34,122 bases of DNA from Pseudomonadota bacterium (lineage in GTDB: Bacteria > Pseudomonadota > Gammaproteobacteria > Steroidobacterales > Woeseiaceae). Below the pieces are notes generated by a model. That model saw only the letters and a program-made list of their open reading frames with translations. It searched no databases and was not told where the DNA came from. Positions within the stretch are counted from its first letter, which is position 1, and each line of letters opens with the position of its first letter. Below are positions 556-28,587 of this stretch, one piece after another. The DNA lies in NCBI GenBank assembly GCA_022567295.1, contig JADFHE010000034.1, positions 1 through 34,122 of the forward strand, in the 5' to 3' direction. Made by a program: the position numbers and the translations under genes.

Positions 556-1383
556 TTATTGTGCTAAAATTATTTTCCGCTGCTCAAGCATCTGGAAAAA
601 CGACTCTAACCTGTTTTTAATATTTGCATAAGAAAAATACCTCGGGTCAACGAGATCAGATTCAATAAAACCTACGGGTATTTCTAATTTTTCTTCCAAC
701 CTTCTCATCATCAATAGCTGACCGGCAGAGAAAGAGTTACAGCTTTTTATTGAATTAACAAGGAATCCGTCTGCATGATAATCGGTTATATATTTTTCCA
801 GCAGATCAATTCGCTGCGGAAGATTCAAATTGGTGTAGCAGGTCATACAATATTCTGATAAACTTTCTAATGGTCGGTCAGGATCGTGACGGAAACCCAT
901 CTCATACATTCCACCAACCTTAGTATAAGAAGAAGCAACTATAACCGCACCGTAATCATAAAACAATTTCCAAAATTCACGGAAGCTTGTCCAGTTAGGC
1001 GGTCCTTCTACAACAAGCCGGAACTGTTCATCCTTTAACTCGCCTTCGGGAGTGACAGGACCTAATCCTTTATCTACTCTTTCTAAAATTTCTTTGTACA
1101 GCTCACCGTAATACTCAACAGCTTCGGATGTTCCTCTAAAACCAATATTAATAGGGCCTATGTAATACACTCCTGCAAAATAAGCATCAATCGGTGAGGG
1201 AACATTTTTCGGAGTGTCGAAGATTTTACCGATCAGATCTTCAGCTTTTGCTGAATTCCTTAAAATCTCCTTGAGTTTTTCTTCATCCAGTTTTTTTCCT
1301 GAGATTTTTTCCATTTTAGGAATCACCTCTTCCTTTAATTGCTTAACCATGTATTCCGTCATTTCATCAGTAATCCTGCTATT
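556..1383 (-). CDS. 2-hydroxyacyl-CoA dehydratase subunit, HgdB/BcrC family, 5' end lost at the junction
   Basis: The coding frame is convincing from about 1380 down to the TAA at 556. It contains the family pattern of a cysteine pair (SEYCMTCYTN), the cluster-ligand region DGFLVNSIKSCNSFS, and a late VGFIESDLVDPRYF segment ending near a helix with an arginine. The fold and cysteines match the [4Fe-4S] subunits of 2-hydroxyglutaryl-CoA, phenyllactyl-CoA or benzoyl-CoA type enzymes; substrate cannot be assigned. The reading frame stays open to 1578, but residues upstream of about 1383 are only the antisense of pilY1, so that extension is an artefact. The natural 5' end is missing. The activase follows 17 bases downstream, the usual gene order for this system. 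Confidence 0.82.
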   Translation of the reverse strand, partial: NSRITDEMTEYMVKQLKEEVIPKMEKISGKKLDEEKLKEILRNSAKAEDLIGKIFDTPKNVPSPIDAYFAGVYYIGPINIGFRGTSEAVEYYGELYKEILERVDKGLGPVTPEGELKDEQFRLVVEGPPNWTSFREFWKLFYDYGAVIVASSYTKVGGMYEMGFRHDPDRPLESLSEYCMTCYTNLNLPQRIDLLEKYITDYHADGFLVNSIKSCNSFSAGQLLMMRRLEEKLEIPVGFIESDLVDPRYFSYANIKNRLESFFQMLEQRKIILAQ

Positions 1384-1390
1384 TTCCTGG
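1376..1390. other. Junction of two unrelated DNA sources
   Basis: Left of this point the sequence is AT-rich and codes for an anaerobic dehydratase on the minus strand. Right of it the sequence is GC-richer and codes for PilY1 on the plus strand starting in the middle of the protein (IFLVVGSNDGM). Both proteins are cut in mid-domain at the same place. I see no insertion-sequence end, direct repeat or tRNA that would explain a natural insertion. Confidence 0.75.
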
Positions 1391-2856
1391 TCGTCGGATC
1401 GAATGACGGCATGGTGCGCATGTTGCGCAACATGACGACGAGCGGCGCGCAAAGCGGCGAAGAAGTTTGGGCGTTCATGCCACGCGCTGCGATGTCGGTA
1501 CAAAAACAGCTGCGCGAAAACAGCTCCGGCAGTGACCACCCGTACACGATGGACGGTGCGCCTGTCGCGTATCTTCAAGACGTCAATAATGATGGCAGCA
1601 TTGTTGCCAGCGATGGCGACAAAGCCTATCTCTACATCGGCATGCGTCGCGGCGGCAAGTCTTATTATGCGTTTGACGTTACCTATCCTGAAGCACCGCA
1701 GTTAATGTGGACGATCGAGAAGGGCGGCGACTTTGCCGAACTCGGCTACACGTTCTCAACGCCACGTGTCGGTTTCGTGAATACGCCGAGTGGACCGCGC
1801 GTTGCCCTCTTTTTTGCCGGCGGCTATGATCTCAACAAGGATATACGCGGCGCGGTTGGCACGGATGATACCGAAGGCAATGCACTGTATGTAGTCGATG
1901 CAGAAACCGGTGCTTTGATCTGGAAAGCACGCGGCGGCAGCGGCGGATCGTTCAATACCTATGCACACAGCGGACTGGTCGACAGCATTCCGTCGACGCT
2001 GACCGTGGCAGACACCGATGGTGATGGATTTACAGACAGAATCGTGGTCGGCGATACCGGTGGCAATATCTGGCGCGCCGATCTTATAGGGACCGACGTT
2101 TCGAGCTGGAAGCTCACGCTGCTTGCGTCCGTCGGACGACATTCCGCAGGCGCATCGGGTATCGCTACTGATCGTCGCTTCTTTCATCGCCCGGACCTGG
2201 TGCAGAGCCTAGACGGTAACGGGCTGTTCGATGGTGTCCTGCTCGGTTCCGGCGACCGTGCCGACCCGCTTGATTATGGCGGTACTGTCGAGAACTGGTT
2301 CTACATGATCAAGGATCATCACACGGCAGTTGGCACTGGCGTCAACACCGGTCTGCAACATGCAGATCTTGGTGACGTTACGAGCAACTGCCTGCAAGGC
2401 GGCACCTGTACTATCGATCTCACCGATGGCTGGAAGCTGCAAATGGCAGAACCCGGAGAGAAAATTCTGGCGACGGCCCTGACGCTGACCGGTAAAGTAT
2501 TCTTCACCTCGTATCTGCCGCAGCTGGCGGGATCATCCACGGCCTGCGCACCGGCAGAAGGCGCGGGACGCCTGTACGCTGTGTCACTCCAGGATGCCAC
2601 GGCAGTGATCAACTACGACACCAGCGACGACAATCCAGACTATCCGGATGAGCCAACATCTGCCAACGATCGATTTTCGGACCTGACGTCCGCGGGCATC
2701 CCGGCAGAAGTCGTGTCATTACCGCCGAACAAGATTCTGCGACCGGACTTGACGGTGGATGATATCGACGCAACGACACGCTGGCGCACGTACTGGTACC
2801 TGCAGGAAGATGCAGACCTGCAGCCTGCCGTGCAAACACCATTACAAGGGCAATAA
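1384..2856 (+). CDS. pilY1: PilY1-type pilus tip/assembly protein, C-terminal part only
   Basis: About 490 residues of the C-terminal beta-propeller of PilY1. The recognisable sequence begins FLVVGSNDGM and continues GEEVWAFMPRA, then the characteristic YIGMRRGGKSYYAFDVT. A calcium-binding loop DTDGDGFTD is encoded at 2011-2037 and followed by VVGDTGGNIWRADL. In type IV pilus systems PilY1 is a secreted or tip-associated factor whose calcium loop controls pilus extension and retraction. The N-terminal part, including any vWA domain, is absent because the contig changes source at about 1383, so the TTG at 1339 is not a real start. A pilE-like gene follows after 1 base. A second, complete pilY1 lies at 7467-10814 on the other strand. 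Confidence 0.88.
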   Translation, partial: FLVVGSNDGMVRMLRNMTTSGAQSGEEVWAFMPRAAMSVQKQLRENSSGSDHPYTMDGAPVAYLQDVNNDGSIVASDGDKAYLYIGMRRGGKSYYAFDVTYPEAPQLMWTIEKGGDFAELGYTFSTPRVGFVNTPSGPRVALFFAGGYDLNKDIRGAVGTDDTEGNALYVVDAETGALIWKARGGSGGSFNTYAHSGLVDSIPSTLTVADTDGDGFTDRIVVGDTGGNIWRADLIGTDVSSWKLTLLASVGRHSAGASGIATDRRFFHRPDLVQSLDGNGLFDGVLLGSGDRADPLDYGGTVENWFYMIKDHHTAVGTGVNTGLQHADLGDVTSNCLQGGTCTIDLTDGWKLQMAEPGEKILATALTLTGKVFFTSYLPQLAGSSTACAPAEGAGRLYAVSLQDATAVINYDTSDDNPDYPDEPTSANDRFSDLTSAGIPAEVVSLPPNKILRPDLTVDDIDATTRWRTYWYLQEDADLQPAVQTPLQGQ

Positions 2857-2857
2857 T

Positions 2858-3316
2858 ATGCACAAGACGTTGCAACCAAGGAGCCGCCAATTGGGTTATA
2901 ACCTGATGGAACTGATGATCGTCGTCGTTATTATCGCGATCATTTCATCGATCGCCTACCCGTCGTACACGCAATATGTCGTTAGCTCCAAGCGTACGAC
3001 TGCCGCGTCTGCGTTGCTGCGGGTTGCAGACCGCCAACAGCAGTTCTTCATGGATAACAAGACATACGCAGGAGATCTGACCAATCTGGGTTTTGCTGCG
3101 AATCCGTGGGTCTTGTCGGATACCGGTAACTCCGTCGCTGCCGGTGATGCGGATGCCGTGTATTCAATTTCCCTGTCGAACGTTACGGCGATCACCTACA
3201 CGGCAACGGCTGCGCCGCTCCACGGGCAGCTGGCCCGGGACACGGACTGCGGCAGCCTGGCACTTGATCAAGCGGTTACAAAGAGCAACAGCGCCGGCGG
3301 TGACGACTGCTGGTAA
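2858..3316 (+). CDS. pilE: Type IV pilin-like minor pilin, PilE family
   Basis: A 152-residue prepilin. The leader ends in Gly and the mature N-terminus is YNLMELMIVVVIIAIISSIAYPSY, giving Glu at +5 and the hydrophobic helix that PilD-type peptidase recognises and methylates. Tyr at +1 is less usual than Phe or Met. A C-terminal cysteine pair (DTDCGSL and GGDDCW) can form the D-region disulfide. An ACAAGGG ribosome-binding site lies 7 bases before the ATG at 2858, inside the end of pilY1. The pilY1-pilE pair parallels the complete minor-pilin operon further right. PilE-class minor pilins sit with PilY1 at the pilus tip in known systems. Confidence 0.88.
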   Translation: MHKTLQPRSRQLGYNLMELMIVVVIIAIISSIAYPSYTQYVVSSKRTTAASALLRVADRQQQFFMDNKTYAGDLTNLGFAANPWVLSDTGNSVAAGDADAVYSISLSNVTAITYTATAAPLHGQLARDTDCGSLALDQAVTKSNSAGGDDCW

Positions 3317-7047: not shown

Positions 7048-7470
7048 CTACCTCGTTCGCGTCCAGCAATTGAGATCGGGCGCAGACGACTTTATGCCGC
7101 GCCCGTCGATCTGAAACGAATTGCACTTCGTCGATTCAGTGCCGCCTAGCTGATAAGCCGCCACGGCCGTGAAATTACTCGCGTCGGCCGCCGTAATTGT
7201 GATCACATAAGAGCCTGTGTCGGACGTGAAAGGACTGGCTGAAAATCCCAGCACCGTCATATCCGTTGTGAACGTATTGTTCTGCAAGTAGAAGCGCTCC
7301 TGATTGGTCGCGATCTGCAATAATGCGGCTCTTGCCTCGTTGCGCTTTGCCCTGGCAGTGAACTCGCGGTAGCTGGGATAGCTGACAGCGGCGAGGATGC
7401 TGATGATAACGATGACGATCATCAGTTCTATTAGCGTGACACCACGCATGGATTGACGAGCAGGCATCAT
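7048..7470 (-). CDS. pilE: Type IV pilin-like minor pilin, PilE family (second copy)
   Basis: A 140-residue prepilin, last gene of the minor-pilin operon. The leader MMPARQSMRG precedes the mature N-terminus VTLIELMIVIVIISILAAVS, with Glu at +5. A C-terminal cysteine pair (STKCNSF and DLNCW) fits a pilin D-loop. The ATG at 7470 overlaps the pilY1 stop in an ATGA junction, which indicates coupled translation; a second ATG follows at once. It is related in layout to the pilE-like gene at 2858 but clearly diverged from it, so this is not a recent duplication. The role is presumably in the PilY1-containing tip complex. Confidence 0.9.
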   Translation of the reverse strand: MMPARQSMRGVTLIELMIVIVIISILAAVSYPSYREFTARAKRNEARAALLQIATNQERFYLQNNTFTTDMTVLGFSASPFTSDTGSYVITITAADASNFTAVAAYQLGGTESTKCNSFQIDGRGIKSSAPDLNCWTRTR

Positions 7471-10400
7471 TCGATTCCGTCTTGCGTCCACAGCGTGCGC
7501 ACCGGGTTGTTCTCAAAGCCCGGATCGAAGCACTCAACGCCCACGCAACCCAGCGGTGGCGGCATGCAATGTGGACCATTGCAGTTCGGATCATCGGGGC
7601 TCGGGAACAATATCGTCGGTGACGGCGCGATACCTCCCTGAGCCAGCGCGGTGGTTCGCGCTGCGTCACTATCGGCAGGCAAGAGCGAATCCGGATAGTC
7701 GACCGGATCGCCATTGACGACGCTGACCCGGTACAGGAAGTTTCTGCCCAGGGTGGGGTCACACACCGAATCCGAAGTCGCTACCGGCGAGAAGCCGACG
7801 AAGAAAACGGAATCGTCGAAGGTTGCCGAGTTGGCGAGAACCATCTGATCGGTGGGCATAGTGAACTTCCATCCGCGGTCCGCGGTGGTAATGACCGCTC
7901 CCAGCTGTCCGCTGACTTCAACCATATCGGCGGCCGTCGCTATGATGTAGGAGTCGTAATCGGCCTGCGACAATTGATTGAATACGTCCGGGTCACGCAG
8001 GGAATAGAATCGATCATTGGCAGTCGTGTTGAGCGGATGAGCCCGATAGCCGGATCCGATACTGACGGATATGTAGCGCCGGTTTTGCAGCGGAGCTCTA
8101 AATACGGCGACGTCGGGGGAATTATAAATCCTGGGCGGACCCTCGCCGGCCGGCGTCGTAACTCCTTCAAAACCGAATCGCGCGATGATTCCGCCGGTGA
8201 CCAAATTATCGGCAAGTTGTCCGGAGAAGATATCGAATCGCCATATTTGTCCACCGACGTCGGCAGCGTACATGCGATCAGCAAAACCATCGCCATTGAT
8301 ATCGATAGTCTTAATGCTTGTCGGAAATGCTCGCGTCATTTCACGACCCGGAAAATTAAGCGTCAGATTAGCCAGACTGTCCACACCGGCACGCCAGATC
8401 TTTGCTCCGGTCTTGAGGTCCAGCATATAAATGCCCGCTCCCTCAATATCGTCTTCGGTCGGTGTGAATTGCGCATCATGCACCGAGTTATAGCCCGCCC
8501 CGACTATGACCACCGCTTTGTTCGAATTCAGCCCTGGTTCTGTTGTGTCTACGCGCGCAATGACGGGCGCAGACCAGGTTTGCTCGAACTCAGGGAAGGT
8601 TACATTCCACAACAACCTGGGCGAGTTCTTGCTGGTTACGTCCAGCGCATAGTAACTTGCGCCACCGCGTCGCATGCCGAAAACGATGTAAATGAAATCG
8701 TTGACGCCGTCGATTTGTCCGTTTTGGTCTTCGTCGAATATAACCGGCGTGATACTACCGTCGATTCCGTATTGTTTGTATTTTCCGGACAAATCGCTGA
8801 AGAGACTGGCGAAATTTCTCAGCAGCTCTTTCGGCACAAACGCCCACAACTCGACGCCTGTGTCGGCATCAATTGCATGCAGATAACCGTCGTTGGTCGC
8901 GCTGAATACGATAACGTCGGCTGCGCCGGCCGTGCCGTAGTCAACCGCGGCCGGCTGTGCATGCAGAGGATCGCCCATGACGTATCGGGTAGTGGTTGTC
9001 GGATCATTGTCGACGTCGGCGATGTCTTCGCCTCTTGCCCAGCTAATTATTTCGGAGACCGTTGGTTCACCGCTGCTGCCCGTTAAGCCAAAATCGTCCA
9101 CGATGAAAGCACTGGCATTAAATTCCGTCAGCACATTGACACCCGCCGTAAGGTCCGCGCCGCCGCCGTTGTTTGTGAAAAGCCTGCGAGTAGCCGGGTC
9201 GGGCAACACATTTGCGGCTCCGCCTATTGTGACGTCACTGCCGTCTGCGGCGCCAACCGTCCAGAAACTCTTTGCGGTATTCGCAAGGAACCCGGTCGTC
9301 GTGTCAACCGCCGGCGCACCGAGCGCATCGGTAATCACGCCATCAACGATGCGATATTTCTTCAGGTTACCCGGCCAATGCGTCCCGAGCGACGATTGGA
9401 ATACCGACATGTACAGATCGTTCAGGTTCTGTGTCCGGTTGAACGCGTTTACGGCAACTGCCGGTGCTACGAACGTTAGCGATTGTTCGGTGATCTCATC
9501 GAAAATACTCAGCAGGGAAACCGCGAGATCCTCCGGATTGTCTGCGAGGAAGAACTCGCCGCCGGTAATCTCCGCCGTCTCCTTCATCCGGGCCAACGAA
9601 TCCAGAGGTGACAGGAAACCGACGCCGAATGTTCTGACATTCTGCAGCCCGGGGGTAACGGGATCGATGTCGTGATTGAACAGGTATTCGGAAATATCGT
9701 CAAGACAATCTCCCTCTGCGACATAGTCGTCGCAAGTCGTTCTGCCCAACGCGGCCTCCCACCCCGGCAAGGTCGGCGCAAGAAGCAGAGCGCCGGCGTC
9801 ATTTTTGGGCAGCGAGTCGGTCAACAGGACGTTGAAATTGCGGGAACAAGCGCCCCCAGCTGCCGTAGGTGCTTTGTAGATCTCCGGAACCAGCGACGAC
9901 AGGGCATCCGGATCCGTCTTGGTTACACCATAATGCACAGGAAGTCCCTGCCAATATAGTGCGGACTCGTAGAGTGTTTCGGAGAGTGGCGTATTACCAA
10001 CGGCGGTAATCGAGTCGAGCGTGCTGTATAAATCTGCCCGACTGGCGTCGAGATCCTGCATGGCATGGGTGACAATTCCGCCTTCATTATTGTTGAACTC
10101 CATGAGGCTGAGATTGACGTTATCGTAGGCACCGAGCACTTTCTTCATTATGCTCTTTACAATATCAATGCGTTTGATATCGGCCTCTGGTGGATTGGCG
10201 CGCCAGTTCAGATAGTTTCCGGAGTACAACGTATAAGACTGGTTTGTCGGAGAGCTTTCCCAGTCAATTTCCTGGTTGGAATTGCTCGAATACAAGGGCT
10301 GGCTCTTACCAAACCTGGCGTAAACCAAGCCGGCCGTGCCGTCACCGTGAATGCCCGAGTCTGCCGCGCATTCGACAGTACTAGTCGTAAAATCAGAAGC

Positions 10401-10814
10401 ACCGGTTGAGGCCTTGAGGTCTTGCCATTTGGGCCCGTTCAATCGGTATTGCGCTACCACGCCCGTATAGCTGCCGACGGCATTCAACTGGCCTGCGGCT
10501 GAGGCGCAGACGAAGCTCGTGTTGACGATCTCTCGCTTGGAAGTACAAGCGGGTGGAGTTCCCGCGTCGCTCCAATAGAAACTATCCGAAATACAAGTAC
10601 CAGGATACAGCAGCGCACTGTCGTAAAAGGCGATCGTATGCTCGAGCGTATTCATGCTGCCCGAGGTATCCAGAATAAAATTGACGTTCGGTTTGTCACT
10701 CGACTGTGCGCTCGTCAGCAACAATTCCGTGTCGTCGGCCAGCGCAGGTGTAACTGTGACAACTGCCAGTGCCAGCGGTACGCTGAGGCAGGCCAGTCTT
10801 CGCATGATAGTCAT
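7467..10814 (-). CDS. pilY1: PilY1, type IV pilus tip-associated protein with vWA domain
   Basis: A complete 1115-residue protein. A Sec signal peptide ends near ALA-DD at residues 24-28. A von Willebrand A domain follows, with the metal-site motif DTSGSM at residues 49-54, GNTPLSETL and LLTDS. The C-terminal half is the PilY1 beta-propeller: NDGYLHAIDADTGVELWAFV, FGMRRGGASYYALDVT, and the calcium loop DINGDGFAD near residues 838-846. In Pseudomonas and relatives PilY1 acts with the minor pilins to prime pilus assembly and takes part in adhesion and surface sensing. Length is close to the well-studied PilY1. It overlaps pilE by 4 bases and starts 15 bases after the small gene upstream. Confidence 0.94.
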   Translation of the reverse strand: MTIMRRLACLSVPLALAVVTVTPALADDTELLLTSAQSSDKPNVNFILDTSGSMNTLEHTIAFYDSALLYPGTCISDSFYWSDAGTPPACTSKREIVNTSFVCASAAGQLNAVGSYTGVVAQYRLNGPKWQDLKASTGASDFTTSTVECAADSGIHGDGTAGLVYARFGKSQPLYSSNSNQEIDWESSPTNQSYTLYSGNYLNWRANPPEADIKRIDIVKSIMKKVLGAYDNVNLSLMEFNNNEGGIVTHAMQDLDASRADLYSTLDSITAVGNTPLSETLYESALYWQGLPVHYGVTKTDPDALSSLVPEIYKAPTAAGGACSRNFNVLLTDSLPKNDAGALLLAPTLPGWEAALGRTTCDDYVAEGDCLDDISEYLFNHDIDPVTPGLQNVRTFGVGFLSPLDSLARMKETAEITGGEFFLADNPEDLAVSLLSIFDEITEQSLTFVAPAVAVNAFNRTQNLNDLYMSVFQSSLGTHWPGNLKKYRIVDGVITDALGAPAVDTTTGFLANTAKSFWTVGAADGSDVTIGGAANVLPDPATRRLFTNNGGGADLTAGVNVLTEFNASAFIVDDFGLTGSSGEPTVSEIISWARGEDIADVDNDPTTTTRYVMGDPLHAQPAAVDYGTAGAADVIVFSATNDGYLHAIDADTGVELWAFVPKELLRNFASLFSDLSGKYKQYGIDGSITPVIFDEDQNGQIDGVNDFIYIVFGMRRGGASYYALDVTSKNSPRLLWNVTFPEFEQTWSAPVIARVDTTEPGLNSNKAVVIVGAGYNSVHDAQFTPTEDDIEGAGIYMLDLKTGAKIWRAGVDSLANLTLNFPGREMTRAFPTSIKTIDINGDGFADRMYAADVGGQIWRFDIFSGQLADNLVTGGIIARFGFEGVTTPAGEGPPRIYNSPDVAVFRAPLQNRRYISVSIGSGYRAHPLNTTANDRFYSLRDPDVFNQLSQADYDSYIIATAADMVEVSGQLGAVITTADRGWKFTMPTDQMVLANSATFDDSVFFVGFSPVATSDSVCDPTLGRNFLYRVSVVNGDPVDYPDSLLPADSDAARTTALAQGGIAPSPTILFPSPDDPNCNGPHCMPPPLGCVGVECFDPGFENNPVRTLWTQDGIE

Positions 10815-10829
10815 GATCCCAAATTCCTT

Positions 10830-11168
10830 TTACTTGACGACGTGCACGGCGACGATCGAATCCGATGCCAAATGGTGAATGACGGTGGCGATGTTGGACT
10901 TTTTATCGACGATCGAACTGACCGCCTTTTTGAAATCCGCAAGAGAAACGTCCCGATTATTCAACAAGTAACGTGTGTCGGTGGTAACCCGAACCGTTTG
11001 CATTTCGCAGATGTCGCAGTCCTTGAACGACACACTGCCGACCACGTTACCCGGTAAGCGCAGGCCGTCTACGGCGATCTCGTACGCCTGACTAATAATG
11101 TAGTTCTCCGCCGACGCGGCGAAGCTCACGGTCGCCAGTGCAGCGATGAAGAGAGTTTTGATACGCAT
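10830..11168 (-). CDS. Small exported CxxC protein between pilX and pilY1
   Basis: A 112-residue protein not recognised as a named family. It has a Sec signal peptide (MRIKTLFIAALATVSFAASA, cleavage before ENY) and a CDIC motif near the middle, followed by a mixed alpha/beta stretch with no membrane segment. The ATG at 11168 is preceded by a GGAG ribosome-binding site with good spacing. Its place in the minor-pilin operon, immediately upstream of pilY1, suggests a periplasmic helper in PilY1 folding, export or assembly. Pseudomonas has a similarly small PilY2, but there it lies after pilY1; I cannot claim homology. The CxxC could be redox-active or metal-binding. Confidence 0.8.
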   Translation of the reverse strand: MRIKTLFIAALATVSFAASAENYIISQAYEIAVDGLRLPGNVVGSVSFKDCDICEMQTVRVTTDTRYLLNNRDVSLADFKKAVSSIVDKKSNIATVIHHLASDSIVAVHVVK

Positions 11169-11209
11169 TGAAGTCACTCCAATTCTTTCGTGTTGTCCAT
11201 TCGCTCGGG

Positions 11210-11689
11210 TCATAGCGTCGGCGATCCAGGGCCAACGATATAAAAAGCTTGTGTGTGAACGGCAGATGCGTCGCGGTCAGTGACATTTCCGGGCGACATA
11301 CGATACTCCGCCTGAGACGTCGCGAGAAAATGGTACGCAGCGATGCCGCTGCCAGATCCAAGACTAAAGGCTCGGTCAGGTACCAGCGTCGCTTCCTCAT
11401 AATGGATCGTTACTGATATGACTTCGTATGTTGTGGCGGGTGGCGTCACGACAATATCGGCTACCGTGCTATAAAAACCTTGCGCCATTGCGTTCTCAAG
11501 ACCCGTTTCGGCGGCCTGAAACGCGTTCTCATAGGTCTGGTCGTTACGTGCTAAAGCCAATTCCGTCGTCGCCGTGTTCATGCCCGATACGGCCAGTACC
11601 GTAATGACGACGAGCAGGAGCAGGCCGACAATCAGCACCGCGCCCTGCTGGCGTTCCCGGTTCATTATTGCTTGAAAATTCGTTTTCAT
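11210..11689 (-). CDS. pilX: Minor pilin PilX
   Basis: About 159 residues with the PilX N-terminal signature QQGAVLIVGLLLLVVITVLA followed by ENAFQAAETGLENA. Like other PilX/GspK-type minor pilins it has Val, not Glu, at position +5 after the leader glycine. PilX is part of the priming complex (PilV, PilW, PilX, FimU) that starts pilus assembly and recruits PilY1. I chose the ATG at 11689 because GAGAA lies 7-8 bases upstream. An alternative ATG at 11707 overlaps the pilW stop as ATGA and would add six residues. Confidence 0.88.
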   Translation of the reverse strand: MKTNFQAIMNRERQQGAVLIVGLLLLVVITVLAVSGMNTATTELALARNDQTYENAFQAAETGLENAMAQGFYSTVADIVVTPPATTYEVISVTIHYEEATLVPDRAFSLGSGSGIAAYHFLATSQAEYRMSPGNVTDRDASAVHTQAFYIVGPGSPTL

Positions 11690-11703
11690 AATTATTCTCA
11701 AAA

Positions 11704-12663
11704 TCATGTTCTTGCGTTGCGTAGCAGTATCGTTTTTGAAACCTGCATACGCCGGAAACTATCGTTTTGTACGCCCAGGTCGATATCTCCAGGCTCATAG
11801 TCGTTACTATCCCGGATGCCCGCTTCAATGCCCACGCTGCGAACTATGAGCCAGACACGCGCCGTTATGACGCGTGCGCCAGGAATGTAGCCGACAGCGT
11901 TCGGGTTATAAATCGGGTCACCCGGATTAACGTATCGATCGACCGTGTTGTCCTGGTCGACGTCGACTCCGAGTTGTAGCTGCAGGTTTTCAACGCCGGG
12001 GGCGACTTCCTCATCGACGATCCTCGGTCCGCCGGCACCACCGCCGATTAATCGGTGGCGGCGTAAAGTAGGTACGCCATTGATGAGTGTGGATGACGGC
12101 GACACGTAATAACTGGTCACAATCAGATTGTGGGTTGCCGAGTTGACGGGGGTATACCCGGCTGGAATCGCGCCATCGGCGAATATCTGTCCCTGAATTC
12201 TGGTGGTCTGTATCTGCAGGCGGCCGGCCTCGAGCGGAACCGCGTTAACGCTGGCACGCCGAATCGTAATGACATCCGAGTTCGCCTGACTCCCACCCGT
12301 CGCGGCACAGGCCAACGTGTACGCATTATTGCTGCCGTCAATGGGCAAGGCGAGATCCAGAGTCCAGTTCACTGCGCAGTCCGTGGCCGGCAGCGGGACA
12401 CCCGAGGGATTCGGATCGCCATTTAAAGCGCGACCTTCAACGGACAGGCCGCGACTGTTCCGGCCCCAGTTACTGGCCATGCGCAAATCCGCCTCGATCG
12501 TATCCATCGCAAATTGTGCCGTTTCCTGTACACGAGCTATCGACTCGTTAACGACAAAAGCCTGGCGGCTCTGGCTGTATATCTGCACGGCACCGATCAT
12601 CAGGAACGAGCCGATAGCCAAAGCGACCATGAGTTCGATAAGCGTAATACCGTTTTGTCGCAT
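11704..12663 (-). CDS. pilW: Minor pilin PilW
   Basis: A 319-residue prepilin-like protein. The leader MRQNG is followed by ITLIELMVALAIGSFLMIGA, with Glu at +5, and by a long beta-rich C-terminal domain typical of PilW. The ATG at 12663 is preferred because the cleavage site then follows a normal short leader, and GAGGG lies about 9 bases upstream. A TTG at 12678 overlapping the pilV stop is possible. The gene sits between pilV and pilX in the conserved fimT-fimU-pilV-pilW-pilX-pilY1-pilE order. PilW with PilV, PilX and FimU caps the growing pilus. Confidence 0.92.
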   Translation of the reverse strand: MRQNGITLIELMVALAIGSFLMIGAVQIYSQSRQAFVVNESIARVQETAQFAMDTIEADLRMASNWGRNSRGLSVEGRALNGDPNPSGVPLPATDCAVNWTLDLALPIDGSNNAYTLACAATGGSQANSDVITIRRASVNAVPLEAGRLQIQTTRIQGQIFADGAIPAGYTPVNSATHNLIVTSYYVSPSSTLINGVPTLRRHRLIGGGAGGPRIVDEEVAPGVENLQLQLGVDVDQDNTVDRYVNPGDPIYNPNAVGYIPGARVITARVWLIVRSVGIEAGIRDSNDYEPGDIDLGVQNDSFRRMQVSKTILLRNART

Positions 12664-12674
12664 GCCTAAGGCCC

Positions 12675-13121
12675 TCAAAATCCGAGTACCGGGATTGTGA
12701 TTATGTATGTCGGAGTTTCACCGGGCTCGGTCCAGCTGACCGTAATCTGATACGTTGGCGGCACGACGCCGTTGTTGAAAACGATCGCCACGTCGCCAGT
12801 AGGGAGCGCACCAGCCGCCTGATTTTTCCACAGCAGTATGTCGGTCGACGCCATCTGAACGGGGTTGCAGTCAATGCCACCGGCTATGCAATTGTTATCC
12901 GCGCCGACTGCCGCTGTGTAGGCAATTCCCGCTGTCGGGTTCGCACGAATGCGATCTGCCACATCACCCGCGATCGTGACGGCGTGATGTCGAAACATTG
13001 ATGTTCGTCCGGCCTGCAGGCTTTGTACATACAGTCCGGCAATACCGAGCATGCCGACCGACATGACGACCAGCGCGATCAGCACCTCGACTAATGAGAA
13101 CCCTGTATTCCTTGCTTTCAT
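12675..13121 (-). CDS. pilV: Minor pilin PilV
   Basis: A 148-residue prepilin. After MKARNTG comes FSLVEVLIALVVMSVGMLGI, the PilV N-terminal signature with Glu at +5, then AGLYVQSLQAG and RIRANP, which are typical of PilV. Cysteines in NNCIAGGIDCN may form a disulfide. It begins 3 bases after the upstream fimU-like gene and ends inside the pilW leader region, so translation is tightly linked. Confidence 0.92.
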   Translation of the reverse strand: MKARNTGFSLVEVLIALVVMSVGMLGIAGLYVQSLQAGRTSMFRHHAVTIAGDVADRIRANPTAGIAYTAAVGADNNCIAGGIDCNPVQMASTDILLWKNQAAGALPTGDVAIVFNNGVVPPTYQITVSWTEPGETPTYIITIPVLGF

Positions 13122-13124
13122 TTC

Positions 13125-13709
13125 TTAGCATCCACCGTGGAAGGCTATCTGCGCCTCGTCAGCGAGCACGGTTGCACGGCCCAACGGCGTAACAACGAGA
13201 ACACGCGCAGCCGATTTGCCGCCGCTGCCTCGGATGTTACCGCGCTCGTCGCAGATCACCGCGGTCGAAACCGGTGGTGTTCCCGTTACATTGCCGCGAC
13301 CGAGCCCAGTCGAGGCAAACGAGAAATAGTCGTCCGGGCCGGTGGTATTGATAACGATGCCCTCTGCTACGGGAGGAAATCGTCTCAAGATCGGCTCGCC
13401 GGCATCAACCACGATGTCACCGTCACGGTCTTCGAAAACGATCCAGCCCGCTTCCAGTTCGCCGCCGCAGGTGGGAATGGCCGCCATGGAGTCAGCGCTG
13501 GCACAAATCGTAATACTGGTTTTCGCGCGCGCGGCTTCGCTTCGCGCCAGATGAAAGCTGGAGTGAAGGTCGTTCGCCGTGCTGGTCATGCGGCTGCTCT
13601 GCCGGAATGACGCCATATTCGGCACCCCGATCGCCAACACAACACCGATGATCATCATCGTGGTCAGAAGCTCGTAAAGCGTAAAGCCCGTCTGGTTTCT
13701 TGGATTCAT
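13125..13709 (-). CDS. fimU: GspH/FimT-domain minor pilin, FimU-like
   Basis: A 194-residue prepilin starting MNPRNQTG, then FTLYELLTTMMIIGVVLAIG with Glu at +5. The GspH/FimT domain follows: LARSEAARAKTSITICAS, GWIVFEDRDGD and a conserved cysteine pair. Near the C-terminus it has LGRATVLAD instead of the GRxR motif seen in the neighbouring FimT, so this copy looks like the structural FimU type and not the DNA-binding type. The ATG at 13709 is chosen for leader length. A 99-base gap separates it from fimT, in which I see no convincing promoter. Confidence 0.87.
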   Translation of the reverse strand: MNPRNQTGFTLYELLTTMMIIGVVLAIGVPNMASFRQSSRMTSTANDLHSSFHLARSEAARAKTSITICASADSMAAIPTCGGELEAGWIVFEDRDGDIVVDAGEPILRRFPPVAEGIVINTTGPDDYFSFASTGLGRGNVTGTPPVSTAVICDERGNIRGSGGKSAARVLVVTPLGRATVLADEAQIAFHGGC

Positions 13710-13808
13710 GCTGTCTACTATAAATCGTTGCTTCCACACCCGTCCCAGCAACCGACAAGCGGCGCCGTACCACCGATAAACGGTCGAATTTGGGGCGCGC
13801 TTTTTTAC

Positions 13809-14342
13809 TTAATCCACACATGAATAGAGCTCACCATTGGTCTTGTGACGTGCGACACGCGGACGACCGGTATAGCTAACTACAAGGGCCTTGGGCACAA
13901 TGCGGTCTTTTGGGTCGCAGAACACAAAAGTGCCATTTGTCGCCCGGAGAAACGTTGCTCTGAGCGTAAACCCCTTGCGATTGGCGGAAATCTGAACATT
14001 GTCCCCGACACGGTGCTGGAGCAGCAGCGGTTCGCCGGCATCGAGGCGCGGCGGCGAGTCCCGATCCTTGTTTTCGAATAGCAGCCAGCCGCTCGACCAG
14101 TCCTCGCTGGGTGAGCAAGTACGGCCGTCCAGACTCGGGCAAAGCGAGACCACTTTGCGTCGCATAATGGATTCTTTCCGCGCCTGGTGGACGGCGTGGA
14201 AAAGGGCATCTATTTCTACGCGCTGTCGCTGCCGCGCCAAGCTGTTGGAAAACGAGGGAATTGCGATGCTCGTAATGATGGCGACCAGGACCAGCGTCAA
14301 CAGCAGTTCGTAGAGCGTAAATCCTTGATTTCGAATGGTCAC
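13809..14342 (-). CDS. fimT: GspH-domain minor pilin FimT with GRxR motif
   Basis: A 177-residue prepilin, first gene of the minor-pilin operon. The start is GTG at 14342: GAGGAG lies 6-7 bases upstream and gives a short VTIRNQG leader before FTLYELLLTLVLVAIITSIA (Glu at +5). An ATG at 14366 would lengthen the leader by eight residues. The GspH domain shows ARKESIMRRKVVSLCPS and GWLLFENKDRD. Near the C-terminus is SYTGRPRVAR, containing a GRxR motif. In Legionella and other gammaproteobacteria FimT uses this motif to bind DNA during natural transformation, so this copy is a candidate DNA-uptake pilin. Confidence 0.88.
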   Translation of the reverse strand: MTIRNQGFTLYELLLTLVLVAIITSIAIPSFSNSLARQRQRVEIDALFHAVHQARKESIMRRKVVSLCPSLDGRTCSPSEDWSSGWLLFENKDRDSPPRLDAGEPLLLQHRVGDNVQISANRKGFTLRATFLRATNGTFVFCDPKDRIVPKALVVSYTGRPRVARHKTNGELYSCVD

Positions 14343-14499
14343 TGTGAGCTCCTCGTCGCGGATCATTTTGCCCTCGGGGTGCAGACGATGGCTCTGTTAG
14401 AATCAGGGCGGAATGCACTAAAAAGACGGGGAAGTCGCGTATGTCGCGTTCTGAAATTCTGGCAAGGTATCGAAGGCGACCCTCTATAACTCTTTGAAT

Positions 14500-24623: not shown

Positions 24624-24774
24624 AAATCACGAAGTTCAATACTCGACTAAGTCAAATTTTCCCTGTCTGACACGTACCTGTTGCCTTTTGGAGACATCTA
24701 GACGCAGCTAATTATTTGCGCGAAGGTGGCCTCAGAAACTGTGGGTGAGGGCCTGCGGAACAAGAGCAAAACAA

Positions 24775-25980
24775 ATGCGTGCAGATAGTGTTGGGCTGCG
24801 AGAACAACGGATATTCATCCGCTATGAGTCGCAGCAACAAGCATTAAAATTTCTTAGAGCGATATTGTCAGATCAGCGGGGCATCGCCCTGTTGCACGGA
24901 CCGCGATTGTCCGGAAAATCAGTGGTAATCAATCAGTTTGTTCGGGACGTGCAAGGGGACGTCGCCATTGCCGTCGTTGACGGTGCGCGCATGAAGACGC
25001 CTGAATTGTTATCGAGAATACTCGAACAATTTGGCTACAACGTCTCGCTCAACTCGATCGATGAAATGCTGAGTATGCTTACCGTGTTTGTGGTGCAACA
25101 AACGCGAACCTATCAGGCGCCGGTTCTGGTTTTGGAAAACATAAACGAAATGTTTCCGAGCGCACTGGGTGCCCTCTGCAAACTTGCGTCACTAACAACC
25201 AATAATAAAAATGCGTTGCGACTTGTGCTCGTGAGCGATCGCGACATCAGTCACATCATTGAATCACCGAGCATGAATGCAATTACCGAGCGCGTAGCTG
25301 GTAATTTCGAATTAGGGCCCATGACATCGAAGGAAGCATTGCTGTATCTGTATGCCAAGCTGCGTTCCGGCGGGGTCGACTGGCCTGATGACGTTTTTTC
25401 GGTCGACGTATGCGAAAAACTATATTCGCTGTCCGGCGGTTGGCCGGGTGAGTTGGACGCGATAGCCGTATCGATTATAGAGCAGGCCGATGAGTACCCC
25501 ATTCGGCTGGACGACATTGTGGACCCGGATTCTCCGCTGGTTGATGACACTCCAAAATTGATTCTCACCCAGGCAGGAGAGACAGTGCGAGAAATCAGGC
25601 TGGTTGAAGAAAGAGCCTTGATTGGTCGCTCGGACTTGAGCGACATCGTTATTGACGATCAGTTCGTCAGCCAGCAGCACGCGTTGCTGATACGAAACCA
25701 GGACTCGATTGTGCTTATCGATCTCAAGAGCAAGAATGGAACATTCGTTAATTCTCGACGTGTTCAGAGTAAAGTATTACTGAACAACGACATCATTTCG
25801 CTCGGCGACCACCGCATGAAGATGGTTTATGCGACGGATCACGTAAGCGTGGAAATTGATGATCCGGATCTCGCCGATACGGCGAAAATGAAAAGTATCG
25901 CCGATGCGTGTCGCGACAAAGAACAGAAAATTCCGACCCTGTACCCGGTCACCAACAAAATAAAGTCACAGTCACCGTAA
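24775..25980 (+). CDS. AAA ATPase (ExeA/MshM-like) fused to a C-terminal FHA domain
   Basis: A 401-residue cytoplasmic protein. Residues 1 to about 240 are an AAA domain of the ExeA/GspA/MshM kind: YESQQQALKFL, Walker A LLHGPRLSGKS, and a helical lid ending LYSLSGGWPGELDAIA. The Walker B position reads VLVLENINEM, lacking the usual DE pair, so hydrolysis may be weak or absent. Residues from about 275 form an FHA domain with ALIGRSDLSDIVIDD, FVSQQHALL and SKNGTFVNSRRV, keeping the Arg, Ser, His and Asn that bind phosphothreonine. There is no membrane segment or peptidoglycan-binding domain. I chose ATG 24775; a GTG at 24745 is possible. The partner kinase is not in the window. Confidence 0.85.
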   Translation: MRADSVGLREQRIFIRYESQQQALKFLRAILSDQRGIALLHGPRLSGKSVVINQFVRDVQGDVAIAVVDGARMKTPELLSRILEQFGYNVSLNSIDEMLSMLTVFVVQQTRTYQAPVLVLENINEMFPSALGALCKLASLTTNNKNALRLVLVSDRDISHIIESPSMNAITERVAGNFELGPMTSKEALLYLYAKLRSGGVDWPDDVFSVDVCEKLYSLSGGWPGELDAIAVSIIEQADEYPIRLDDIVDPDSPLVDDTPKLILTQAGETVREIRLVEERALIGRSDLSDIVIDDQFVSQQHALLIRNQDSIVLIDLKSKNGTFVNSRRVQSKVLLNNDIISLGDHRMKMVYATDHVSVEIDDPDLADTAKMKSIADACRDKEQKIPTLYPVTNKIKSQSP

Positions 25981-26238
25981 TTGACTGTCCTTGCTGCCGC
26001 GCCGATTAATCCCGCTGGTCGCTACATTCTTTTTGTCCTGCTCCGCCTGACAGGTGATACACAGGCGCACACCGGGAATAGCCGTCTGCCGCGCCTCCGG
26101 AATGCCGGCACCGCATTCTGCGCAGTTCTTAAGACTCTCGCCGCTGGGTAACTGCTCACGCGCATGTGTGACCGCGTCTTCGATCGTCGCATCGATCTGG
26201 TCCTGTACGGCCCCGTCTTTTGCAAAGCCACCTGCCAT
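25972..26238 (-). CDS. ybiI: DksA/TraR C4-type zinc finger protein, YbiI family
   Basis: An 88-residue protein, the same length as E. coli YbiI. It begins MAGGFAKDGAVQDQI and contains the zinc finger CAECG at the first knuckle and CITCQ at the second, with IPEARQTAIPGVRLC between. It ends NRRGSKDSQLR as in E. coli. DksA/TraR family members bind in the RNA polymerase secondary channel; YbiI itself is poorly studied. GAGGAAC lies about 6 bases before the ATG. Its stop lies inside the end of the convergent AAA-FHA gene, a 9-base tail-to-tail overlap. Confidence 0.93.
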   Translation of the reverse strand: MAGGFAKDGAVQDQIDATIEDAVTHAREQLPSGESLKNCAECGAGIPEARQTAIPGVRLCITCQAEQDKKNVATSGINRRGSKDSQLR

Positions 26239-26343
26239 TGGAGTTCCTCGACCCGCATGAGGGGCCATTCTAATTGTTCAGAGCGCGGTCTGATAGATTG
26301 ATCCGCAAGACAGTCTGCATGGCTGGCGAACGGGTCGCCTGAG

Positions 26344-26359: not shown

Positions 26360-26444
26360 AATTTTGACGTAATGAGAGAGCCATAGTTCGTTATGTCACA
26401 TACCCGTGGCATTATGACCTACACTGTGAAACGCTCCACAGGAA

Positions 26445-26527
26445 GATGAAAAGGCACGGCGTCCAAGCGGGCGCTTCGCAAAACCACCGGTCTACGGTTA
26501 TTAACTTAAGACAGCGGAGTTACCATC
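26445..26527 (+). promoter_or_regulatory. GEMM-I-like cyclic dinucleotide riboswitch (c-di-GMP-I class)
   Basis: Conserved blocks appear in order. GGCA (26453-26456) starts the first helix. GCGTCC/GGGCGC closes an AAGC loop. CGCAAAACC (26477-26485) matches CGCAAAGCC of the V. cholerae Vc2 aptamer. CACCGGTCTA matches its CUCCGGCCUA, and AGCGGAGTTACC (26513-26524) matches AGCGGGGUUACC. A second hairpin is formed by GTCT/AGAC with an inner GTT/AAC. GATG (26445-26448) can pair with CATC (26524-26527) as the closing helix. GGAG at 26516-26519, inside the last conserved block and 8 bases from the ATG at 26528, is the ribosome-binding site, so control is probably translational. Ligand choice (c-di-GMP or 3',3'-cGAMP) is not decided. 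Confidence 0.8.
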
Positions 26528-27955
26528 ATGAGCTTTATGCTTGACATTACGCCCTGGCCAGTCGCGTCTGCACTACTCTGGATTGTTCTGATTACTGCCG
26601 CACTGTACCTCATTCGCAACACAGCACATCAGGCCATCGAGGCTGCGATGCGCGGCCTGCACCGCAGCTTTCGGATTGCTTCGAAAGCGGTATCCCGATC
26701 CGAAAGCCGTCTTGAGACACGCAACCGCGACGTTTTGCTGGCGGCCGGCCGCGAGGCGAAAGAACGCATCATCGAACGTGAATTCGATCGCATCAACGAC
26801 ACGGTTCGCAAAGATCTCGCCAACTACTCTTCGTTGCATCGCTCTTTGAGCGAATCCATCGGTCGCATCGAGAAAGATCACCAGGAAGCGGTCGATGTCC
26901 CACCGGATCCACCGGGTTGGGTCAAGGCGGTCAAAGCCGTTGCTGAGATGGACGCCAAGGAAGGACGCAGCCAGATCGGCGACATCTTGAGCGACATTCA
27001 CAAGTCGCTCGTCAAAGCGCACAAGGAAGCGATGGCTGCCTATCTCGTAGCCAGTGGGAAGCGTCATAAATTGTTGCGCCACATGCGTCCCGGCTGGCGA
27101 CAGATCCAGCAGACGCTGGCCGCCGTCGGCAAGAACGTCGACAGTCTTTTGAGCCGATCGGTCACGATCGACCGGCTGATGCAGGAGTACGAAGACATTG
27201 TGCATGGACAGGATCGTGCTGTTTCAGTGCTGTCGTCGTCGTCGCTCGTGAATTTCTTTGTCTCTGCTTTTGTTTTAGTCATCGCAATCGGCGGCGCGAC
27301 AATCAACTTCTCACTGATTGCGAGACCGATGGCCGAAATGGTCGGCGGTACGAATGTAATCGGTGGCTATCGTATGGCGGATATCGCGGCCCTGGTCATC
27401 ATCCTGGTTGAAATCTCGATGGGCCTGTTCCTGATGGAGTCACTGCGAATTACGCGTTTGTTCCCCGTGATCGGCGCGTTGCCGGACAAGACCCGCGTGC
27501 GCATGCTCTACATTACTTTCACCATCCTGTTTCTGCTGGCCAGCGTTGAGGCGGGTCTCGCGTACATGCGTGAGGTCTTGCTGCACGACGAACTCGCAAC
27601 GAGCGCCTTGCTGCGTGGCGACATTGGCGAGACAGCGACCAGCGAATATATGTGGATCACGACGGCGGCACAGATGGGCTTGGGATTCATCCTGCCGTTT
27701 GCTTTGACGTTCGTCGCGATACCACTGGAAACATTCGTGCATTCGTTGCGTACTGTGGTCGGGCTGATGGCAATTTCCCTGCTACGAGTGGTGTCATTGA
27801 TATTTCGTTTGCTTGGCAACATATGCCTTTATTTTGGCGTACTGCTGAAACAAGTCTATGATCTGCCTTTGTTCGTGCCATTGTGGCTTGAGGAGCGCGT
27901 GGCACGCCGTGCAGATGCCGAGAGTTCGGCTGTAGCGAGGAGGGTAAGACAATGA
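26528..27955 (+). CDS. Unknown six-helix membrane protein under riboswitch control
   Basis: A 475-residue inner-membrane protein I do not recognise. One helix at residues 11-29 is followed by a long charged, helical, coiled-coil-prone region (about 35-235, very rich in Arg, Lys, Glu and Asp, with a VPPDPPG break at 124-130). Five further membrane segments lie at roughly 240-262, 284-304, 326-347, 376-398 and 410-440, and the C-terminus is short and basic. There is no enzyme or transporter signature. The large soluble loop could sense or scaffold. It begins immediately after the riboswitch and ends in an ATGA overlap with the vWA lipoprotein gene, so the two products are made together and probably work as a pair. 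Confidence 0.85.
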   Translation: MSFMLDITPWPVASALLWIVLITAALYLIRNTAHQAIEAAMRGLHRSFRIASKAVSRSESRLETRNRDVLLAAGREAKERIIEREFDRINDTVRKDLANYSSLHRSLSESIGRIEKDHQEAVDVPPDPPGWVKAVKAVAEMDAKEGRSQIGDILSDIHKSLVKAHKEAMAAYLVASGKRHKLLRHMRPGWRQIQQTLAAVGKNVDSLLSRSVTIDRLMQEYEDIVHGQDRAVSVLSSSSLVNFFVSAFVLVIAIGGATINFSLIARPMAEMVGGTNVIGGYRMADIAALVIILVEISMGLFLMESLRITRLFPVIGALPDKTRVRMLYITFTILFLLASVEAGLAYMREVLLHDELATSALLRGDIGETATSEYMWITTAAQMGLGFILPFALTFVAIPLETFVHSLRTVVGLMAISLLRVVSLIFRLLGNICLYFGVLLKQVYDLPLFVPLWLEERVARRADAESSAVARRVRQ

Positions 27956-28587
27956 GAACAGGACTTTTAGCCACCCTGTGTGTTCTGCTGGTGTCGTGCT
28001 CGAGCGAGGCGCCAACGAATATCGGCGTGTACATGCTGCTCGATACCTCCGGGACGTATGCTGAAGAACTCACTAAGGCCGAGCAAATTATTCGCTACAC
28101 GCTCTCGAAGCTGAATGAGTCGGATTCATTCGCGGTCGCTCGCATCGATACGGGTAGTTTCAGCGAAAAAGACATAATCGCCAAAGCTTCGTTCGACGAC
28201 CGGCCAAGTGCCGTCAACCGGCAGAAGCGTCTGTTTGCACAGCAGGTAAGCGAGTTTGTGAAAAACGCGAAACCATCGTCATACACCGATATCACGGGTG
28301 GCCTGTTGCAGGCCGTCGAATTTCTTAACGAGAAAAACACCGGCAGGAAAACGATCCTGATCTTCTCGGACCTCAAGGAGGACCTCAAGGACGGCTATGT
28401 GCGCGATATTGAAATTGAGCTTGAGGGCTTTAACGTCATCGCTCTTAATGTCACTAAGCTGCGGTCCGACAATATTGATCCCCGCGAATACCTGAGCCGG
28501 CTCGAGGAATGGAAAACCAGGGTTGAAAGGACCGGCGGGCACTGGCGCGTGGTCAATGATCTGGACGGGCTTGAAGGAATTTTCTAG
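27952..28587 (+). CDS. von Willebrand factor A domain lipoprotein
   Basis: A 211-residue lipoprotein. Lipobox LVSC has the lipidated cysteine at position 16, and Ser at +2 argues for the outer membrane. Almost the whole mature protein is a vWA domain with a complete metal site: DTSGT at residues 31-35, T112 in SYTDITGG and D140 in FSDLKED. Such domains bind ligands through a divalent cation. GGAGGG lies 8 bases before the ATG, which overlaps the stop of the membrane-protein gene, so it is translated with it and falls under the same riboswitch. Roles in adhesion, envelope assembly or complex assembly are possible; none is shown by the sequence. Confidence 0.87.
   Translation: MRTGLLATLCVLLVSCSSEAPTNIGVYMLLDTSGTYAEELTKAEQIIRYTLSKLNESDSFAVARIDTGSFSEKDIIAKASFDDRPSAVNRQKRLFAQQVSEFVKNAKPSSYTDITGGLLQAVEFLNEKNTGRKTILIFSDLKEDLKDGYVRDIEIELEGFNVIALNVTKLRSDNIDPREYLSRLEEWKTRVERTGGHWRVVNDLDGLEGIF

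Follow-up and report, generated by a model that had tools for sequence, protein, structure and literature searches.

The window analysed here is the whole of contig JADFHE010000034.1 (34,122 nucleotides, nt), one contig of a 3.0-Mb genome bin (82 contigs, 86% complete) whose nearest relatives are Woeseiaceae. It carries a compact unit in which a cyclic di-GMP (c-di-GMP) riboswitch aptamer is followed by two overlapping genes, the first encoding a membrane protein of an unclassified family and the second a lipoprotein with a von Willebrand factor A (vWA) domain. A first-pass annotation of this DNA had described two coupled genes with an ATGA overlap behind a GEMM-like riboswitch. Both open reading frames (ORFs) and the overlap were found as described, and the riboswitch was recovered by the Rfam model, its last base lying directly before the ATG of the membrane gene. 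The unit comprises the following features:

26425..26435, + strand: TGTGAAACGCT, a block conserved just 5' of the aptamer in an alignment of 21 leaders (genus, family and order), perhaps the -10 region of a promoter
26443..26527, + strand: c-di-GMP-I (GEMM-I) riboswitch aptamer (RF01051, 47.2 bits, E 2.2e-06, gathering score 35)
26516..26519, + strand: ribosome-binding GGAG, read from the sequence, in the 3' strand of aptamer helix P3, 8 nt before the ATG
26528..27955, + strand: membrane protein of 475 amino acids (aa), unclassified family, with six main hydrophobic segments and a helical region at residues 30-226
27952..27955, + strand: ATGA stop/start overlap (translational coupling), read from the sequence
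27952..28587, + strand: vWA-domain lipoprotein of 211 aa, with lipobox Cys16 and metal site D31, S33, T35, T112 and D140

Pairing of the two genes and features of their products

The two genes travel together. In a class-wide sample of 369 genomes, the membrane gene was found in 51 and the vWA gene in 47, and 46 genomes carry both; the membrane protein occurs alone in G266, G395, G400, G456 and G514 and the vWA protein alone in G341. In an order-level sample, 31 of 196 genomes match the membrane protein (the window genome included, and one of them weakly); a further note concerns G037, where a match of 27% identity over residues 55-192 yielded no locus and is not counted among the loci. At the level of the phylum, the membrane protein was detected in 21 of 398 genomes, and the gene is also present in assemblies labelled Alphaproteobacteria, besides Gammaproteobacteria. 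Relatives were found neither in plasmids nor in viral contigs, and a mobile or viral origin was rejected.

The arrangement was then followed in a set of assembly loci (80 kept of 161 found), which shares genomes with the survey, and the two sets of counts are not added together. A profile search placed a vWA gene beside the membrane gene in 77 of the 80 loci, and in the three others (L079, L102 and L122) the contig ends at most 180 nt after, or within, the membrane gene. The pair therefore stands side by side across genomes, distant ones included, and the outcome that would have refuted the first-pass reading, homologues found mostly apart, did not occur. The two genes overlap by 4 nt in 60 and by 1 nt in 8 of the 77 loci (68 in total), and two of the nine loci with neither overlap (L091 and L117) have broken frames. 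Broken frames affect the vWA gene in L091 and the membrane gene in L117 and L235, and are perhaps assembly errors. Among 60 further genome stretches, the membrane gene was present in 59, and 52 of these have an adjacent vWA gene on the same strand. Distances between homologues, taken pair by pair, are correlated for the two proteins (r 0.87, 38 shared rows; none of 2000 permutations reached this value), a figure to which shared ancestry contributes.

No paper describing the pair was found in searches of the open-licence PubMed Central (PMC) literature, and the family libraries used leave it unassigned beyond the vWA fold; with the membrane protein over no family cut-off, the claim that no named system has this composition stands. 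The membrane gene occurs across the Gammaproteobacteria, yet no family, name or described role was found for it. The lasting side-by-side arrangement and the c-di-GMP switch directly ahead of it suggest that the two genes probably encode one envelope device, made or shut off with a change of lifestyle, and we consider it very likely that the two proteins are physically paired.

The proteins were compared in three alignments, of 24 of the 28 full-length proteins (A1), of the window and 44 others (A6) and of the window and 38 others (A7), with loci chosen for spread. The model of the 211-aa protein adopts a vWA fold (predicted local distance difference test, pLDDT, 84.6), its best match in the PDB having Z 15.9 and a root-mean-square deviation (rmsd) of 2.4 over 159 residues; integrin I domains, the vWA domains of anthrax-toxin receptors and the PilB minor pilin match it near Z 15. 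D31, S33, T112 and D140 are invariant in the 39 aligned homologues (window plus 38), as is the lipobox Cys16, and position 35 is T in 36 and S in 3. The first-pass reading of the protein as a lipoprotein with an intact vWA metal site is thereby confirmed. In the eight commonest lipobox types listed, a small residue precedes the cysteine. The +2 residue is S, A, G, T or E in all 39 proteins and never Asp, which makes an outer-membrane placing of the lipoprotein plausible. All five metal-site residues are kept in 48 of 53 further vWA rows (S counted as T), the exceptions being L171, in which the site is lost, L169, L178 and L182, which have E or D for T35, and L181, which is unaligned there. The window protein falls under the gathering cut-off of Pfam VWA_2 (PF13519; 18.9 against 27 bits), and this profile matches 26 of the 39 homologues at E <= 0.01 (best 6.4e-07). 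Neither protein of the pair matches a PADLOC anti-phage defence model at E <= 1.

Three departures were seen among the vWA partners. At L171:2853-3470 (- strand), the lipoprotein gene is still coupled to the membrane gene and its first metal-site motif is degenerate (LDAEG for LDTSG). The related partners of L169, L178 and L182, with E or D in place of Thr35, lie beside a divergent two-component pair. In L028 (G171), the membrane gene is in frame with the C-terminal part of the vWA gene, with neither lipobox nor first metal-site motif, which represents either a natural deletion or an assembly artefact.

The membrane protein shows six main hydropathy peaks, centred at residues 20, 250, 294, 335, 395 and 419 (average over 45 homologues), with smaller peaks between and behind the last two. 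Its AlphaFold2 model contains long helices at 30-122 and 148-226, and the membrane part of the model is of low confidence (mean pLDDT 70, predicted template-modelling score 0.49). Of the features that had been proposed, the six segments are thus recovered from hydropathy and the helical region of about 200 residues from modelling. The net charge is +3.8 over 30-60, after the first segment, +3.0 over 304-326 and -4.0 over 349-376. Under the positive-inside rule, this pattern would place the helical region (30-236) in the cytoplasm and the loops 262-282 and 349-376 outside. Conservation, expressed as mean majority fraction, is highest in the membrane core (0.91 in segment 3, 0.92 at 304-326 and 0.96 in segment 5), and the long helices are less conserved (0.68-0.69).

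No NCBIfam or PADLOC model matches the 475-aa protein at E <= 1, Pfam gave only weak matches below the cut-offs, and PHROGs a single weak one (E 0.047). The matches to 7tm_6 (9 of 45 members), DUF7341 (6 of 45, best E 9.8e-06) and Tsi6 (4 of 45) were taken as composition effects. A Foldseek search of the model against the PDB returned nothing at E <= 0.001; VIA-align gave Z of at most 9.9, in the range usual for long helices, which is not proof of a new fold. In G349, the membrane gene sits in a long open frame that resembled a fusion. Gene fusions were set aside for this gene and for the vWA genes of G503 and G547: the extra length comes from alternative or upstream starts, and nothing in it was recognisable by eye.

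The leader aptamer and its predicted direction

The covariance model found five c-di-GMP-I matches over the cut-off in the window genome, that of the pair included. All 29 order-level loci (L008-L036) have a same-strand aptamer upstream of the pair that exceeds the curated score of RF01051 or RF03167 (c-di-GMP-I-GGC). A model, R1, was built from 29 aptamers of the family, some source genomes of which recur among the assembly loci. Once L083, L099 and L102 were excluded (the 5' end of the membrane gene is missing), 77 assembly loci could be searched, a different subset of the 80 from the 77 that bear a vWA gene. R1 found an aptamer upstream in 56 of them, and none was found at the Rfam gathering score upstream of the remaining 21; Steroidobacter agaridevorans, Peristeroidobacter, an Ectothiorhodospiraceae bin and bins of Alphaproteobacteria are among these. 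The GEMM motif, whose recurrence upstream of the pair the first-pass annotation had proposed to check, does recur, within a clade: the riboswitch is confined to Woeseiaceae and some relatives.

Aptamer end and start codon lie at most 2 nt apart in 45 of the 56 loci (hereafter fused leaders), and a linker of 84-162 nt separates the two in the remaining 11. A transcription terminator in the leader was ruled out for the 45 fused leaders, which have no more than these 2 nt to hold it. The consensus fold of the 29 aptamers places the ribosome-binding site (RBS) of the fused leaders, GG(A/G)G, within the P3 helix, with columns 78, 79 and 81 of the GGAG paired and column 80 unpaired. An aptamer holding its own RBS represents a compact switch design. 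G12 of the window aptamer is invariant in the 29 aligned aptamers; we take its column to be the ligand-contact position G20 of Vc2, the c-di-GMP-I riboswitch of Vibrio cholerae tfoY. At this position, a G marks switches for c-di-GMP and an A those for cyclic GMP-AMP (cGAMP).

The layout of the fused leaders bears on the direction of the switch: as the RBS lies inside an aptamer helix, a ligand that steadies the fold would block translation, which makes an OFF switch. Vc2 is likewise an aptamer that controls translation of the next gene and is OFF when bound (PMC7371385); compared with Vc2, the pair leader has its RBS inside the aptamer and the ATG directly after it. Cd1, ahead of motility genes in Clostridioides difficile, is also a c-di-GMP-I OFF switch (PMC9262584), but it is transcriptional, with a terminator, and its genes are flagellar, unlike the pair in kind. 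In 7 loci, the next gene upstream of the pair encodes a FliA-type sigma factor and has the same orientation, a neighbour that fits a gene of the motile state. On the layout, the two precedents and this neighbour, c-di-GMP probably represses translation of the pair. A folding test was also run, in which the aptamer was forced in partition-function calculations; its result was weak, with 18 of 30 loci scored and the remaining 12 not fitting the search pattern. In a second, likewise weak folding test, the RBS of the linker leaders was less accessible with the aptamer held aside in 6 of the 7 scored and tied in 1, the other 4 of the 11 leaders being unscored as no RBS was found.

The predicted direction weighs on a reading of the pair as an adhesion module, in which the vWA lipoprotein would be an outer-membrane surface adhesin, held or exported via the membrane protein and made when c-di-GMP changes. 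A biofilm adhesin is not expected to be repressed at high c-di-GMP, as the aptamer layout predicts; furthermore, the lipoprotein is a bare vWA domain, and the best-conserved region of the membrane protein is the membrane core rather than an exposed part. The likeness of the vWA fold to that of I domains and of the PilB minor pilin speaks for adhesion, as do the absence of Asp at +2 and CglB of Myxococcus, a vWA surface protein binding substrate (PMC13104615). Taken together, we regard the adhesion module as unlikely.

Other aptamers were encountered during the searches. In the window genome, a second c-di-GMP-I aptamer with a GGAG (L002, G000:C31:95095-95179) also ends directly before an ATG, so that fused leaders occur apart from the pair as well; the gene behind it resembles, by eye, an FAD-linked oxidase. 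In L074 (12311-12423, + strand), a second c-di-GMP-I-like match (48.7 bits with R1) lies just after the vWA gene and before a 420-aa lipoprotein-like ORF.

Co-loss of two intramembrane glutamates with the vWA partner

Two glutamates, E295 and E341, lie midway along hydrophobic segments 3 and 4 of the membrane protein. Their presence was compared with that of the partner across 67 aligned membrane proteins (59 from the genome stretches and 8 from A6). A vWA partner was found by profile for 59 of the 67, and for the other 8 it is missing or degenerate: L171 has the degenerate vWA protein, and L172-L177 and L228 have no vWA profile match (L177 has a lipoprotein-like ORF in the vWA place that barely scores, E 0.05, and L172 an unscored ORF there). 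E295 and E341 are both present in 59 of 59 partnered proteins. In the 8 proteins with a missing or degenerate partner, E295 is kept in one and E341 in two, and none keeps both. V272, N260, F261 and Q382 follow much the same pattern; in addition, position 304 is acidic and position 323 basic in all 8. The ten most divergent partnered proteins all keep both glutamates, which argues that divergence alone does not explain the co-loss.

From these data we propose the following mechanism. The two proteins would form one envelope complex, with the membrane protein in the inner membrane and its helical arm reaching into the cytoplasm. The lipoprotein would be exported, lipid-anchored and docked on the periplasmic side of the membrane protein, most likely at the 260-282 loop and probably via the metal-site face of the vWA domain. 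Docking would control a polar intramembrane site made of Glu295, Glu341 and Gln382, and the complex would signal the state of the envelope or surface to the cytoplasm, perhaps through ion movement. In Woeseiaceae, binding of c-di-GMP would lock the RBS into the aptamer and stop translation of both genes, and the device would be made at low c-di-GMP, the motile state. We thus tentatively read the pair as an envelope sensor or transducer of the low-c-di-GMP state that is gated by the vWA protein and possibly coupled to ions, at a confidence short of even; that the partner gates an ion-coupled or conformational site in the membrane protein is possible, and slightly more doubtful still. The boldest form of the proposal makes the membrane protein the first representative of a new class of ion-coupled transducers that span the envelope, in which the vWA lipoprotein at the 260-282 loop gates Glu295/Glu341/Gln382 and drives the cytoplasmic arm, and in which synthesis in Woeseiaceae is set by a minimal riboswitch whose aptamer and RBS are one helix; as a whole, this is rather unlikely to hold.

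Several observations weigh against the transducer proposal. (i) The co-losses amount to about three independent events, and although all three go in the same direction this is not significant (sign test, p 0.25); the events were counted on a quick tree, which its long branches make unsure. (ii) The proteins with a missing or degenerate partner have diverged overall, keeping a mean of 56% of conserved sites against 78% in the divergent partnered ones. (iii) The vWA proteins of L169, L178 and L182 have E or D at T35, yet their membrane partners keep both glutamates, which suggests that the co-loss follows the partner as such more than the integrity of its metal site. (iv) The absence of the riboswitch from 21 of 77 loci puts c-di-GMP control outside the core function of the pair. 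(v) Ion coupling would have to operate in a protein with no similarity to MotA/ExbB.

This last point also bears on the idea of a MotA/TolQ/ExbB-like motor driven by protons, in which the part set in motion at the outer membrane would be the vWA lipoprotein. TolQRA-Pal and MotAB/ExbBD have an inner-membrane protein with intramembrane acidic residues, and Tol-Pal also has a lipoprotein partner; a conserved Glu halfway along each of two hydrophobic segments, the lipoprotein partner and the presumably envelope-spanning layout make the pair alike by analogy. However, none of 45 members matches the MotA_ExbB profile (PF01618) at E <= 0.1, hhalign comparison with six MotA/ExbB proteins from the window genome gave 0.03% probability and the hydrophobic layout is different. 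Membership of the MotA/TolQ/ExbB family was therefore rejected, and a motor of this kind is very improbable. As for the gated transducer, the analysis opens an orphan pair to testing by naming a partner, a candidate docking loop, candidate active residues and a messenger. If the co-loss is true, it would point to a new way to couple a periplasmic binding domain to an inner-membrane protein.

Neighbouring genes and known systems

The search around the 80 assembly loci found no other constant neighbour. The next commonest is a family of AAA + FHA proteins, found within about 5 kb in 10 of the 80 loci, which in the window is represented by a gene kept outside the unit:

24745..25980, + strand: AAA + FHA protein (Pfam FHA 8.2e-19, AAA_22 4.2e-08)

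This neighbour brings in the possibility that the pair serves to maintain or assemble the envelope, the vWA lipoprotein acting as a metal-dependent chaperone that the membrane protein anchors. vWA domains often act in assembly with AAA proteins, and a vWA protein serves in the RavA-ViaA pair. The AAA neighbour was, however, not found near the other 70 loci, its side varies, and no recurring client gene was found, so that we give this explanation little credence.

In loci that lack the riboswitch, genes for other regulators can lie next to the pair. Among them, the FliA-type genes point in another direction. Pfam sigma-70 domains were present in four of four scanned, and two of the seven, scanned with the NCBIfam FliA model, scored 289 bits each against a cut-off of 201. 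In L136, the one locus scanned for this, genes for CheB, CheD, CheR and an Aer2-like receptor stand ahead of the FliA gene (the receptor and CheR being under the equivalog cut-offs). FlhA is found in 38 of the 51 genomes with the membrane gene and in 163 of the 318 without it (Fisher p 0.002). These data would suit a motility accessory that tunes flagellar or chemotactic behaviour and belongs, in some lineages, to the FliA regulon. But FlhA went unmatched in 13 of the 51, including three genomes assembled as single contigs and 99-100% complete (G213, G276 and G503) and the window genome (86% complete). The pair is therefore not an obligate flagellar part, and a motility accessory appears improbable; an association with the motile state is possible.

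A response regulator and a histidine kinase lie nearby in 10 of the 60 genome stretches, and in 7 of these 10 loci the response regulator is divergent from the pair, with its centre 1.1-1.4 kb away. In L178, L182, L186 and seven more loci, the response regulator has an IFWVEDQ-like start. Its kinase, in the three loci scanned, has a Pfam ATPase domain and no phosphoacceptor domain.

Two known systems resemble the pair through their vWA component. CglB of the Myxococcus Glt-Agl machinery is a surface protein worked by a proton-driven inner-membrane complex that spans the envelope (PMC13104615). The resemblance lies in an outer vWA part coupled to an inner-membrane machine; Glt-Agl differs in having many components and in that CglB binds substrate at the surface, and the pair is not shown to belong to it. 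We know of no homologue of the membrane protein in the Glt-Agl complex. The PilY1/PilB-type tip proteins of type IV pili have, like the pair, an extracytoplasmic vWA domain, and PilB of Streptococcus sanguinis aligns with the 211-aa model over 165 residues (Z 15.2, rmsd 2.5). They are nonetheless pilus subunits rather than lipoproteins, and among the identified neighbour families of the pair no pilus gene recurs.

Elsewhere in the window, a small DksA/TraR-type zinc-finger protein (PF01258, E 5.2e-11) is encoded at 25972-26268 on the - strand, between the AAA + FHA gene and the riboswitch. Two clusters, at 1339-3316 and 7048-14366 and on opposite strands, resemble, by eye, type IV pilus genes of the PilY1-type and minor-pilin kinds.

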